Positions 39,758 to 53,774 of a stretch of 64,000 nt of DNA are shown in pieces (position 1 is the stretch's first letter; each line of letters begins with the position of its first letter). Below the pieces are notes generated by a model. The model was not told where the DNA came from, ran no database searches, and saw nothing but the letters and a program-made list of their open reading frames with translations. A program made the translations under genes and the position numbers. This DNA is from Actinomadura luteofluorescens. Its GTDB lineage: Bacteria; Actinomycetota; Actinomycetes; Streptosporangiales; Streptosporangiaceae. Location: positions 1,178,001 through 1,242,000 of the forward strand of contig NZ_JACCBA010000001.1 of NCBI RefSeq assembly GCF_013409365.1, given 5' to 3'.

Positions 39758-41131
39758 ATGACCTCCTGGCCGCGCTTCCCCGTCCGGCCGCACGGCCGGT
39801 CCTGGATCTTCTTCACCGTCGGGGCGGTGGTCGCGCTGCTCACCGGGGCCGCCGGACTCCTCTACCCGGCCTCCTCCTACACCCCGCTGTCCTCGAAGTG
39901 CGAGCACAGCGAACTGTTCGTCGTGGGCGGCACGGACATCAGCCTCAACTACGAGCGGCGCAGGCTCATCTCGCAGTGGAACGAGGAGCATCGGCACGCC
40001 ACGCTCGTCGAGGTGTCGGACTCCACGGACCTGCAGCACAGCCAGATCAAGGCCATGGAGGAGTCCGGCGGCTGCGCCTACGACGTACTGATCATGGACA
40101 ACACGTGGACCGCGCAGTTCGCCGAGAGCGGGTACCTGCGTCCCCTCGACGATCCCGAGGACCCGGAGGACTTCTTCCCCAACGCGCTCCGGACCGGTAT
40201 GTGGCAGGGCGATCTCTACGCCGTCCCGTTCAACGTGGACGTCGGGCTGCTCTACCGCCGTACCGACATGCCGACGAAAACGGAACAGCCCGACTCATGG
40301 GCTCGTCTCATCGACTCCCCTGTCATCATGCAGCTCGCCGACTACGAAGGCCTGACCGTGAACGCACTCGAAAGGGTGTGGAACAGCGGAGGCGCCGATT
40401 TCATGGGAGAGGGCGGTCGGGGCGAGAAATACCTCCGTGAGAACGTCTACCAGGCACTGGAGGAATTCGCTACGAGGGTCAAGCCCGATCTCGAGGCACG
40501 GAAGTATCACGAGCGAGAGAGCATCGACGCGTTCGCCTCCAATTCGCAGAAGGCCCGCTCCTCAACTGCGCGCCTGATGCGCAACTGGCCCTACGCGTTC
40601 TCGACACTCGCCGCCGAGCCGCAGATGCAGCAGGACGGAGGTCTGAGGTTCGAGGTGAGCGCCCTGCCCGGCCGCACCGTTCTCGGCGGGCAGAACCTCG
40701 CCGTCGCGAAGCGCTCCCCCCACGCCGCCGATGCCGAGAGGCTGGTCAAGTTCCTCACCGAAGTGAAGAACCAGAAAGAGCTCTTCGCGTGTGGTGGGCT
40801 CGCCCCCGCCCGCTACTCGGCGCTCGGCCTGCGGCCCGGCCAGAAGGTTCCCGAGAACTGGCCGATCGCCAAATGCTCGGAACTCGACAAGAGCATGACC
40901 GGCCTGGATGAGACGCATGTCCTCGACCACGAACAACTCCAGGAGCTCGGCCGGGCGATCGTGACCGCCCTGCCCGGCGCGTCACCGCGGCCGGTGACGG
41001 CTCACTACAGCACGTTCAGCCGCACGTTCCGCGGCTGCGTCGTGAAGATGATCAACAACAAGCCCGTCGGTGAGCGGACGTTCGCCCGCGCGGTGCGCCG
41101 CTCGCTGGACGGCCAGACGGCCTCCTGCTAG
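39758..41131 (+). CDS. Membrane-anchored extracellular solute-binding-like protein
   Basis: A 457-aa protein. One N-terminal hydrophobic segment (WIFFTVGAVVALLTGAAGLLYP) acts as signal anchor; no lipobox is present. The rest resembles family-1 solute-binding proteins: LISQWNEEHRHATLVEV, YDVLIMDNTWTAQFAESGYLRPLDD, WQGDLYAVPFNVDVGLLYRR and LGGQNLAVAKRS. It is 13 bp after the VWA gene and has no transporter partner nearby. The frame ends at TAG 41129-41131, which is the CTAG boundary of the repeat element. Confidence 0.83.
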   Translation: MTSWPRFPVRPHGRSWIFFTVGAVVALLTGAAGLLYPASSYTPLSSKCEHSELFVVGGTDISLNYERRRLISQWNEEHRHATLVEVSDSTDLQHSQIKAMEESGGCAYDVLIMDNTWTAQFAESGYLRPLDDPEDPEDFFPNALRTGMWQGDLYAVPFNVDVGLLYRRTDMPTKTEQPDSWARLIDSPVIMQLADYEGLTVNALERVWNSGGADFMGEGGRGEKYLRENVYQALEEFATRVKPDLEARKYHERESIDAFASNSQKARSSTARLMRNWPYAFSTLAAEPQMQQDGGLRFEVSALPGRTVLGGQNLAVAKRSPHAADAERLVKFLTEVKNQKELFACGGLAPARYSALGLRPGQKVPENWPIAKCSELDKSMTGLDETHVLDHEQLQELGRAIVTALPGASPRPVTAHYSTFSRTFRGCVVKMINNKPVGERTFARAVRRSLDGQTASC

Positions 41132-41309
41132 GCAGTGTTTCAAAGCCCCGGCCCACTGCGCTCGCCTGGCGGCTCGCTACGTGACCGAGCCTGGGCGAAC
41201 GCGGCATCGCTTCGCGATCTGCCCGGTTCCGCTCGCCTCCGGCTTCGCTCCACCTGCCAGGTCACGCGTTCGCGCGGCAAGGCCGAGGCGGTTTCGAGAC
41301 AGACCCTAG
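41128..41309 (+). mobile_element. 182-bp CTAG-bounded MITE-like element, copy 1
   Basis: Bounded by CTAG at 41128-41131 and 41306-41309. It matches the reverse complement of 52580-52761 over its whole length, by eye 85-90% identical with one short compensating indel pair. Ends are CTAGGCxGTGTTT and GAGACAGACCCTAG, imperfect terminal inverted repeats. It has no coding capacity. CTAG is a target duplicated by some IS5-group elements, so a non-autonomous derivative is likely. It separates two convergent genes, both of which use TAG in its boundary CTAGs as stop. Confidence 0.75.
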
Positions 41310-41965
41310 CCCCGGTCGGCGGCCGGCGCCTTCTCTGCCCGGCCGTCCGGAGAGGCTGTGTCCGGCAGGTGGGAGTCCGCGGCGGCGAGGGCCGTGCGGG
41401 CCATGCCGTGCAGGAGGTCGGCCATCGCGGCGCGGTCGAGGCCCTGCGCTGCGCTGCGCGGGGTGGAGTTGAGCAGGCCGAAGCAGGCGTGGACGGCGGC
41501 GCGGATGCGCTCGTCCGGAAGCCGGGGGCTGAGGCGGCGCAGGACGGCGACCCACTCCTCGACGTAGGCGCGCTGGAGGCGGCGGATGCGGTGGCGCTGC
41601 GGCTCGGGGACGTTGTCGAGTTCCCGCTCGTGCACGGTGATCAGCGCGGGGTTGTCGAGGGCGAACGCGATATGCCAGCTCAGCAGCGCGTCGATGGCGC
41701 GCCCCGGGTCGGGTTCGGCGGCGCGCCGCAGGCCTTCGGCGAGGAGCCGCTCGCTGATGTCGAGGAGCATCTCGGCGAGGACGGCCTCCTTGCCGCTGAA
41801 GTGGCGGTAGAGGGCGGGGCCGGTGAGCCCGACGGCCCGGCCGAGGTCGCCGATGGACGCCCCGTGGTAGCCGCGGCGCGCGAACAGCTCGGCGGCGGCG
41901 CCGAGGATCTCGGCCCGGCGCGGGTTGGGCGGGCCCGGCGGCGCCTCGGCCGGATGCGACGTCAT
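41306..41965 (-). CDS. TetR-family regulator of the carboxylase operon
   Basis: A 219-aa TetR protein. The helix-turn-helix is ILGAAAELFARRGYHGASIGDLGRAVGLTGPALYRHFSGKEAVL (about residues 19-60), and the C-terminal part has the TetR_C pattern found in regulators of acyl-CoA metabolism. It is divergent from the carboxylase beta gene and separated by two GTTAAC-type palindromes, so it probably represses that operon until an acyl-CoA intermediate binds. A TAGACT hexamer 6 nt before the ATG indicates a leaderless message. Its TAG stop lies in the boundary CTAG of the repeat element. Confidence 0.92.
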   Translation of the reverse strand: MTSHPAEAPPGPPNPRRAEILGAAAELFARRGYHGASIGDLGRAVGLTGPALYRHFSGKEAVLAEMLLDISERLLAEGLRRAAEPDPGRAIDALLSWHIAFALDNPALITVHERELDNVPEPQRHRIRRLQRAYVEEWVAVLRRLSPRLPDERIRAAVHACFGLLNSTPRSAAQGLDRAAMADLLHGMARTALAAADSHLPDTASPDGRAEKAPAADRG

Positions 41966-52403: not shown

Positions 52404-52583
52404 CCAACGTGGTCGTCGTCGGCGACCAGGTCGTGGCGGAGTGGACGTCAAGGGGGCGGCGCGCGGCGGGAGCGCCCACGACAACCGGTGCCTCGGCGTG
52501 TTCACGGTGCGGAACGGCAAGATCACCTGCGTCCGGGAGTACACCGACACCCAGACGTCGAACGCACCCTGTTGGACTCCTAG
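52403..52583 (+). pseudogene. Remnant of a SnoaL-like (NTF2-fold) gene
   Basis: Three frames together give the second half of a SnoaL-like protein: TNVVVVGDQVVAEWTSRG in one frame, then GGSAHDNRCLGVFTVRNGK and ITCVREYTDTQ in the next, then DVERTLLDS and TAG in the third. The first half is absent and two frameshifts lie near 52445-52460 and 52550. The DNRxLxVFxxRDGKI...REYxD pattern is typical of SnoaL-like proteins. The final TAG (52581-52583) lies in the CTAG end of element copy 2. Confidence 0.65.
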
Positions 52584-52761
52584 GGTCTGTCTCGAAGTGG
52601 CCTCGGCCGCGCACGCGAACGCGTGACCTGCCCGGTGGAGCGAAGCCGGAGGCGAGCGAAGCCGGGCAGATCGCGAAGCGATGCCGCGTTCGCCAAGGCC
52701 AGGTCACGTAGCGAGCCGCCAGGCGAGCGTAGTGGGCCGGGACTGAGAAAACACCGCCTAG
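52580..52761 (-). mobile_element. 182-bp CTAG-bounded MITE-like element, copy 2 (inverted)
   Basis: The reverse complement matches 41128-41309 along its whole length and has the same size. It is bounded by CTAG at 52580-52583 and 52758-52761. As with copy 1 it sits between two convergent frames: the SnoaL remnant stops at TAG 52581-52583 and the minus-strand gene stops at TAG 52758-52760, both within the boundary CTAGs. Confidence 0.75.
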
Positions 52762-53774
52762 CGCGCGAAGACCGCGAGCCGCGCCTCCGCTTCGCCGGGG
52801 GCCAGCTCGCGGAGGCTGACCCGCGATTCCAGCGCCTCGTGCAGGACCGGGTACATGTTCGTCGGGGACCACTGGGCGTGGATCGATTTCTCGTCCAGGA
52901 ACAGGGTGGGAAGGCCGTCGACCACGGGAATCGCCTCGAAGGGCGCGGAACCGGGGAAGAACAGGGCCGGTTTCGCGCCGGCGCCCGGGTAGTGGAATCC
53001 GATCCGCTGGTGGTCGATCAGCTCTTGGGCCTCCTGGTGCTCCTGCGGAGTCAGGCCCTGGTTCCGCGCGTACCGCACGCTCGCGGGGTCGGTCGGCTCG
53101 GCTCCGAGGTACCCGGGGCCCGCGTGGCGTTCGAGAGCGTCCTGCGCGAGCGCGAAGAAGTGGTACATCCGGTCCTGGACGCCGGTCAGGCCGAGGACGA
53201 AGCCGCGCCGGCCGCGCGGGTCCAGCAGCAGGATCTCCCGGCCGTCCAGGAGGGCGAGCACCTCGCGGACGTAGTAGAGGGTCTCGTAGTGGTCTTCCAG
53301 TTCCTCCGCCAACGGCGCGACCTGGGACCGGGCCCGCAGACGCCGCCGCGCGCCCTCGTCGCGGCTGAGCATCGTCATGGCCGCGAGGAGGACGAACGGC
53401 AGGGTGTGGTGGGCCCGGACAAGGTCGGGAGACACCTGGAACAGCTCGTCCTCGGCGCTCACCCCGCCCTGCGCCACGAACTCCTTCGCCAGGTGCAGGC
53501 AACGTTCCGTCACCCGCATGACCGCGTCCACCGGGACGGTCACCGAGCCGCCCCGCTCGACCAGCACCCCGCAGACGAAGGCCATCATCCCCGCGCGGAA
53601 GACGTCGCCGGACTCGAACGCGGCGGCGAGCTCCGCCATGGCGGCGTCGACATCGGTGACGGTCCCCAGGAACGCCTGCACCTCGTCCCTGCCGATCAGG
53701 TCGGTTCCGGCCCGGCATTCGCCCAGGTCACTCGGCTGCCGGACGAACCGTGCGATCCCCACCGTCTGCGACAT
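52758..53774 (-). CDS. Protein of unknown function, 338 aa
   Basis: I do not recognise this protein. It is mainly helical in its first 200 residues (AMAELAAAFESGDVFRAGMMAF, RVTERCLHLAKEFV, LPFVLLAAMTMLSRDEGARRRL), followed by a segment with strands (EILLLDPRGRRGFVLGLTG, LPTLFLDEKSIHA). It has no signal peptide or clear membrane helix. It is the last gene after a MarR and an LLM oxidoreductase, 9 bp from the latter, and also has its own leaderless -10 within the LLM stop codon. Its TAG stop is provided by the repeat element boundary. Confidence 0.75.
   Translation of the reverse strand: MSQTVGIARFVRQPSDLGECRAGTDLIGRDEVQAFLGTVTDVDAAMAELAAAFESGDVFRAGMMAFVCGVLVERGGSVTVPVDAVMRVTERCLHLAKEFVAQGGVSAEDELFQVSPDLVRAHHTLPFVLLAAMTMLSRDEGARRRLRARSQVAPLAEELEDHYETLYYVREVLALLDGREILLLDPRGRRGFVLGLTGVQDRMYHFFALAQDALERHAGPGYLGAEPTDPASVRYARNQGLTPQEHQEAQELIDHQRIGFHYPGAGAKPALFFPGSAPFEAIPVVDGLPTLFLDEKSIHAQWSPTNMYPVLHEALESRVSLRELAPGEAEARLAVFAR

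Follow-up and report, generated by a model that had tools for sequence, protein, structure and literature searches.

A probable IS5-type miniature element at a CTAG shared by the stop codons of two convergent genes in Actinomadura luteofluorescens

Between two convergent genes of Actinomadura luteofluorescens lies a 182 bp MITE-like element with CTAG at each end. Each gene stops within its own CTAG. The nearest relative found lacks the element, and there both genes end together in a single CTAG. We propose that an IS5-family transposase inserted the element into a CTAG, which was doubled in the process. The target at this locus would have been the CTAG in which the two genes overlapped by four bases and which provided a TAG stop for each strand. 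Since TAG can be read from CTAG on either strand, its doubling would have given each gene a private stop with no codon changed, and the insertion appears to have left both proteins unchanged. Across the genome, the concentration of copies at gene ends would come from the supply of CTAG, which is scarce in genes and frequent at TAG stops between convergent genes, together with the elimination of copies landing in genes or on their 5′ side. The probability of this account as a whole is put at roughly 0.93.

The element and its neighbouring genes

The window (the whole 64,000 nt stretch of DNA analysed) is part of a single contig of 9,622,362 bases, and its relevant features are listed in Table 1. 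The earlier note, made from the letters of the window, had described a 182 bp element flanked by CTAG, with each of the convergent genes stopping at a TAG in its own CTAG, and both descriptions were confirmed. The stop codon of the plus-strand gene is the TAG at 41129–41131, and that of the minus-strand gene is the plus-strand CTA at 41306–41308. CTAG is scarce in the window, with 22 occurrences against a mean of 66.6 in shuffled sequences. The inverted repeats at the ends of the element are imperfect, the 21 nt arms at 41127–41147 and 41290–41310 being 71% complementary. No transposase gene was found in the element; the longest listed frame within 41070–41309 is 79 aa, which is too short. The match of the TetR-type gene to the SACE_7040 family scores 250.1 bits against a cut-off of 250.

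Table 1. Positions of the element copies and adjoining genes in the window.
Feature	Position	Strand	Remarks
Predicted non-autonomous IS5-type element (MITE), with duplicated CTAG at each end	41128..41309	+	Basis: copies of the core genome-wide, absence in relative G058
Left CTAG	41128..41131	.	Contains TAG stop of the plus-strand gene; from sequence
Right CTAG	41306..41309	.	Contains TAG stop of the minus-strand TetR gene; from sequence
Left terminal repeat	41132..41150	+	Compared with IS end
Right terminal repeat	41287..41305	-	Compared with the other IS end
Conserved core	41201..41226	+	Basis of the copy count
Extracellular solute-binding protein gene (SBP_bac_8)	39758..41131	+	Intact to its own TAG
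TetR-type regulator gene, SACE_7040 family	41306..41965	-	Intact to its own TAG
Second element copy, inverted	52580..52761	-	Its CTAG at 52758 contains the stop of a minus-strand gene
Gene whose stop lies in that CTAG	52758..53774	-	No Pfam match

Beside the second copy, the sequence at 52404–52577 resembles a frameshifted or decayed gene, for which the gene caller gives a weak short frame (52441–52626).

The empty site in related genomes

The joined 600 nt flanks of the window element were searched in 65 genomes of the genus. This gave 30 loci, including the window's own; 17 were inspected, one of them without the left gene, leaving 16 relatives for comparison. The nearest relative found (G058, locus L312) matches at 88% over all 600 nt and lacks the element. 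Its two genes overlap by 4 nt, tail to tail, in a single CTAG that holds both TAG stops, so the earlier note's check on relatives without the element finds the genes meeting in one CTAG. The left gene of G058 has the same stop codon and the same C-terminus (SLDGQTASC) as the window gene, and the right gene has the same last codons as the window TetR gene (CGG GGC TAG). Relative to this empty site, the net gain in the window is 178 bp.

The element is absent from this locus in all 16 relatives with both genes. The genes have a common CTAG in six of them and a common TTAG in one, and lie 8–92 nt apart in the remaining nine. In a TTAG overlap, one strand stops at TAG and the other at TAA. The first five relatives examined had no four-base common stop; the wider search brought in G058 and others. 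The history suggested earlier, an overlap in one CTAG followed by target duplication, is thus supported by G058 and five more relatives. Genes that end elsewhere in relatives had been named as grounds for refuting it, and here the evidence divides, with nine of the 16 relatives counting against it and the six with a common CTAG counting for it. One CTAG in element-free relatives and two flanking the element amount to the target duplication looked for in a MITE, a 4 nt duplication being indistinguishable here from a doubling of TA within an invariant CTAG.

A clean loss of the element from the relatives down to one CTAG would look identical to a site that never held it. Precise excision is nevertheless very improbable, since the element is found at the locus in none of the 16 relatives and several of their genomes (e.g., G047, G072, G048, G077) have no core match anywhere at up to two mismatches; a single gain is more probable than clean losses in repetition. 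Judged from how the relatives without the element are spread, the difference probably arose by insertion. At the same mismatch limit, the core occurs in 39 of the 65 genus genomes, including that of the window, at 1 to 98 places each. Public genomes hold at least 120 stretches with the element; among those listed, one is from Spirillospora albida and the rest are from Actinomadura. Three insertions (L031, L052 and L059; copies 61750, 2429082 and 2888456) are common to the genome studied and G058; in contrast to the window copy, some of the family thus predates the divergence of the two.

Copies in the genome and their empty sites

The core was found at 98 places in the 9.62 Mb chromosome (26 nt pattern, up to three mismatches), while the reversed pattern gave no match genome-wide. 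The element is therefore short, present in many copies and free of a transposase gene, as is typical of MITEs. The tabulation of copies by CTAG flanks and stops that the earlier note had called for gave, among the 98, 31 with CTAG at both edges and 12 with a TAG stop at both edges, each of these 12 lying between two genes. A further 43 copies have CTAG in the expected edge window on one side and 24 on neither; these windows, used for scoring both CTAG and stops, were fixed after inspecting the copies. In control windows 300 nt outward of the element edges, CTAG was present on both sides in 1 of 98. Many copies without CTAG flanks would have spoken against the idea, and the 24 without an intact edge CTAG do so to a degree, against 74 with at least one; the 24 may be the result of decay. 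Among 23 canonical copies (CTAG at both edges), lengths are 180–183 nt and mean pairwise identity is 0.906.

Some copies vary in structure. At the left end, a module of about 40 nt occurs in tandem (as in L034, L032 and L036); by motif score, 55 copies have one module, 18 have two, one has three and 24 have none, and the modules bear spacers, mostly of 5–6 nt, that belong to a few recurring forms. In the copy L068 (C1:3425748-3426108), part of the right half forms a tandem repeat with a 62-base period. A 46 nt shortened derivative (L129, 1403–1448), outside the 98, includes both CTAGs without the core; it sits between two convergent called genes, each stopping in its own CTAG. Four copies (L035, L057, L100 and L107) have CTAA at the stop of the left gene and CTAG on the right; a TAG-to-TAA change following insertion, silent at a stop codon, would give this pattern.

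For four further two-stop sites, relatives were fetched after a search of 40 genomes. Four-base overlaps were present in 4/8 (including two CTAG), 6/21 (all CTAG), 1/2 (CTAG) and 1/1 (TTAG) of the relatives. A wider comparison with G058 covered 31 of 41 prepared sites, and 27 of the 31 gave rows: 15 were clean empty sites (both flanks aligned and no more than 40 nt apart), three had the element present, and nine, mostly with one flank unaligned, were not judged. The insertion point at the 15 clean sites is CTAG in 11 cases, GTAG in two, and CTAA and TTAG in one each, and five of these sites are four-base common stops. Altogether, comparable relatives are available for ten of the two-stop copies, which number 12. 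Nine of the ten have a four-base common stop (CTAG or CTAA/TTAG) in at least one relative, and for seven a relative shows exactly CTAG. The exception is copy 3476773, where the genes of the relative lie 27 nt apart with no common stop. At the two-stop sites 6041162 and 7994174, no match across the junction was found in relatives.

The empty sites also bear on whether the element made the stops. Every intact element end supplies one TAG per strand, and an element landing in the 3′ region of either gene, or of both, could in principle have added TAG from its CTAG ends and truncated the proteins. This has almost no likelihood: at all 15 clean sites a called gene of the relative terminates, on one side or both, at the insertion point or no more than one codon away from it, and at the window locus the idea is refuted, and was rejected, on the identical gene ends of the G058 empty site.

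A resident IS5-family element with similar ends

A genome search with the right end of the element found 77 places, compared with 4 for the control. Two pairs of ends, spaced 1024 bp from each other, flank a transposase frame and are bordered by CTAG on either side; these are two copies of a resident IS that differ by one base. The ends of the family-consensus element differ from the IS ends at 2/19 and 2/21 positions, and those of the window copy, with their CTAG, at 3/19 (left) and 6/21 (right), so inverted repeats are held in common with an autonomous element. The IS transposase matches the IS5 family model NF033580 at 245 bits against a cut-off of 110 (NCBIfam), as well as Pfam DUF4096 and DDE_Tnp_1 above cut-off. 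With a DDE transposase of IS5 type and CTAG/YTAR flanks, the 1024 bp partner has the features that define IS5 elements. Other genomes gave 11 homologues of the IS, each with ends close to its own (five mismatches at most in 19). Nine of the 11 have CTAG on both sides; in the remaining two, one side reads TTAG and CCAG, respectively. The statement in the earlier note that some IS5-group elements duplicate CTAG is thus borne out in this genome, which carries IS5-type elements with CTAG flanks.

On these sequence comparisons, the element is probably a short non-autonomous relative of the resident IS, and the similarity of the ends suggests that it was moved by this IS5-family transposase. Strong matches to the transposase (E up to 1e-80) occur in 23 of the 65 genus genomes, against 39 with the element core, so the presence of IS and element is not strictly linked.

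At L122 (IS at C1:8304886-8305909), the stop of a called gene lies within the right CTAG of an autonomous IS copy. The region C1:8.20–8.61 Mb holds 22 of the 26 genome matches to the IS transposase, several of them with internal stops.

Gene context of the copies

Genes were called by a custom codon-usage caller, on which the gene ends rest. No called gene runs over the core in any of the 98 copies; a gene split by a copy would show up among these calls as a co-directional pair. The neighbouring genes are convergent at 62 copies, co-directional at 31 and divergent at four, with no neighbour call at one. Background CTAG sites were taken from the element flanks, the window and nine 20 kb stretches. 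Once 27 sites within genes and 11 at the ends of stretches had been removed, 160 were classified, of which 32 were convergent, 82 co-directional and 46 divergent. Divergent gaps are thus avoided (4/97 copies vs 46/160 background sites, p = 2.5e-7). The ratios of copies to background are 62:32 for convergent sites, 24:27 for co-directional sites at stops, 7:55 for co-directional sites elsewhere and 4:46 for divergent sites, so that copies per background site are highest in convergent gaps, next highest at co-directional stops and rare elsewhere.

These numbers, with a TAG stop at one edge or more in 68/98 copies, could be read as active targeting of stops or of convergent gene ends, with an extended recognition sequence or a transcription-linked DNA structure as conceivable means. 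Co-directional copies are indeed at stops more often than the background (24:7 vs 27:55, p = 4e-5). Between convergent genes, however, there is no difference, either in sites at a stop versus not (43:19 vs 21:11, p = 0.82) or in double versus single stops (12:31 vs 7:14, p = 0.77).

The pattern was compared with that in other species, where 107 copies were classified from 120 loci (12 were too near a stretch end and one had no neighbours). In these Actinomadura loci, 72 copies are convergent, 33 co-directional and two divergent, with one inside a called gene, and the 168 background CTAG sites comprise 41 convergent, 81 co-directional and 46 divergent. Convergent excess (odds ratios 7.1 and 6.4 in the two data sets) and divergent avoidance (2/107 vs 46/168) therefore recur. 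The co-directional effect at stops is absent (11:22 copies vs 27:54 background), and that at convergent stops is reversed (32:40 vs 32:9, p = 0.0007). TAG stops at both edges were found in 1/107 copies, and double stops at 6/41 convergent background sites; the edge windows were set for the studied genome, and shifted edges in other species may be missed. The failure of the stop pattern to recur counts against a general pull to stops, and against two-stop sites being common family-wide. Active targeting is accordingly judged improbable, and special targeting of stop codons was rejected as the main cause after this context-matched comparison of CTAG sites in the studied genome and other species.

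The strong convergent excess in both data sets would also be seen if convergent copies were kept for a function, such as that of two-way transcription terminators or insulators. Among the 23 canonical copies, two stretches close to the ends are less conserved than most of the interior, and folding of the minus strand is somewhat above that of shuffled sequences (mean z of −2.2 in 20 of the 98 copies sampled). Against this, the plus-strand RNA has a mean z of just −1.2, the window copy as DNA folds no better than shuffles (z of −0.38), and no curated RNA family matched 40900–41500 at the Rfam gathering threshold. The convergent excess is, moreover, equally expected under simple tolerance, making retention for function unlikely, if less so than targeting. 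A structured RNA was rejected on the negative Rfam result and the weak folding signal.

Insertion at CTAG and the loss of harmful copies would suffice as the simplest account of where copies lie, and the classes of copy that are missing suggest that selection removed them. The description of such a spot as a safe harbour holds in the sense of passive tolerance: ordinary CTAG sites between convergent genes lie at stops as often as the copies do.

Comparison with known systems

REP and BIME palindromes are high-copy, GC-rich extragenic repeats. The present element is likewise a high-copy, GC-rich extragenic repeat, and differs in its length of about 181 bp, where REPs have 20–40 bp (PMC3733652), in its IS5-type ends and in its CTAG duplication. 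A closer parallel is MITEPsy1 of Pseudomonas syringae, marked 'IS5?', thought to derive from ISPsy2 and able to move in vivo; it is short and non-autonomous, with CTAG or YTAA as target and a 4 nt duplication (PMC3189936). It differs in its length of 100 nt and in its copy number of six in that strain, where two loci are interrupted by it, against 98 mostly gene-end copies here, and the part of PMC3189936 consulted describes no common-stop sites for it. IS5 itself has a DDE transposase and duplicates a Py-T-A-Pu target, most often CTAG, at insertion (PMC5493358). The resident 1024 bp IS resembles that family in its NF033580 match and CTAG flanks; the insertions described in the part of PMC5493358 consulted switch genes on or off, and common stops are not treated there. 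Four tetramers let two genes on opposite strands both stop, namely CTAA, TTAA, CTAG and TTAG (PMC2174442). CTAG as a double stop is common to that work and ours, and the sections consulted draw no link to mobile elements.

Insertion at common stops was not found in the open-licence literature searched. Duplication of CTAG by IS5, short IS5-type elements and the stop tetramers are known; what we would call new is the two-strand stop as a self-repairing landing site.

Implications

More tentatively, and with rather more doubt than belief, a CTAG-specific element may spread in a gene-dense genome by way of such self-repairing overlaps, separating gene pairs by a hairpin-rich spacer that is possibly a two-way terminator. 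At the window locus, the states before and after insertion can be clearly compared, and the insertion appears to be coding-neutral through its duplicated target. The case joins two facts that had stood apart, four-base stop overlaps and IS5-type elements that duplicate CTAG, and helps to explain how about 100 copies of such an element can be present in a gene-dense genome. The same reasoning predicts the sites at which copies of any CTAG-duplicating element would survive, and suggests one route by which overlapping genes may become separate.
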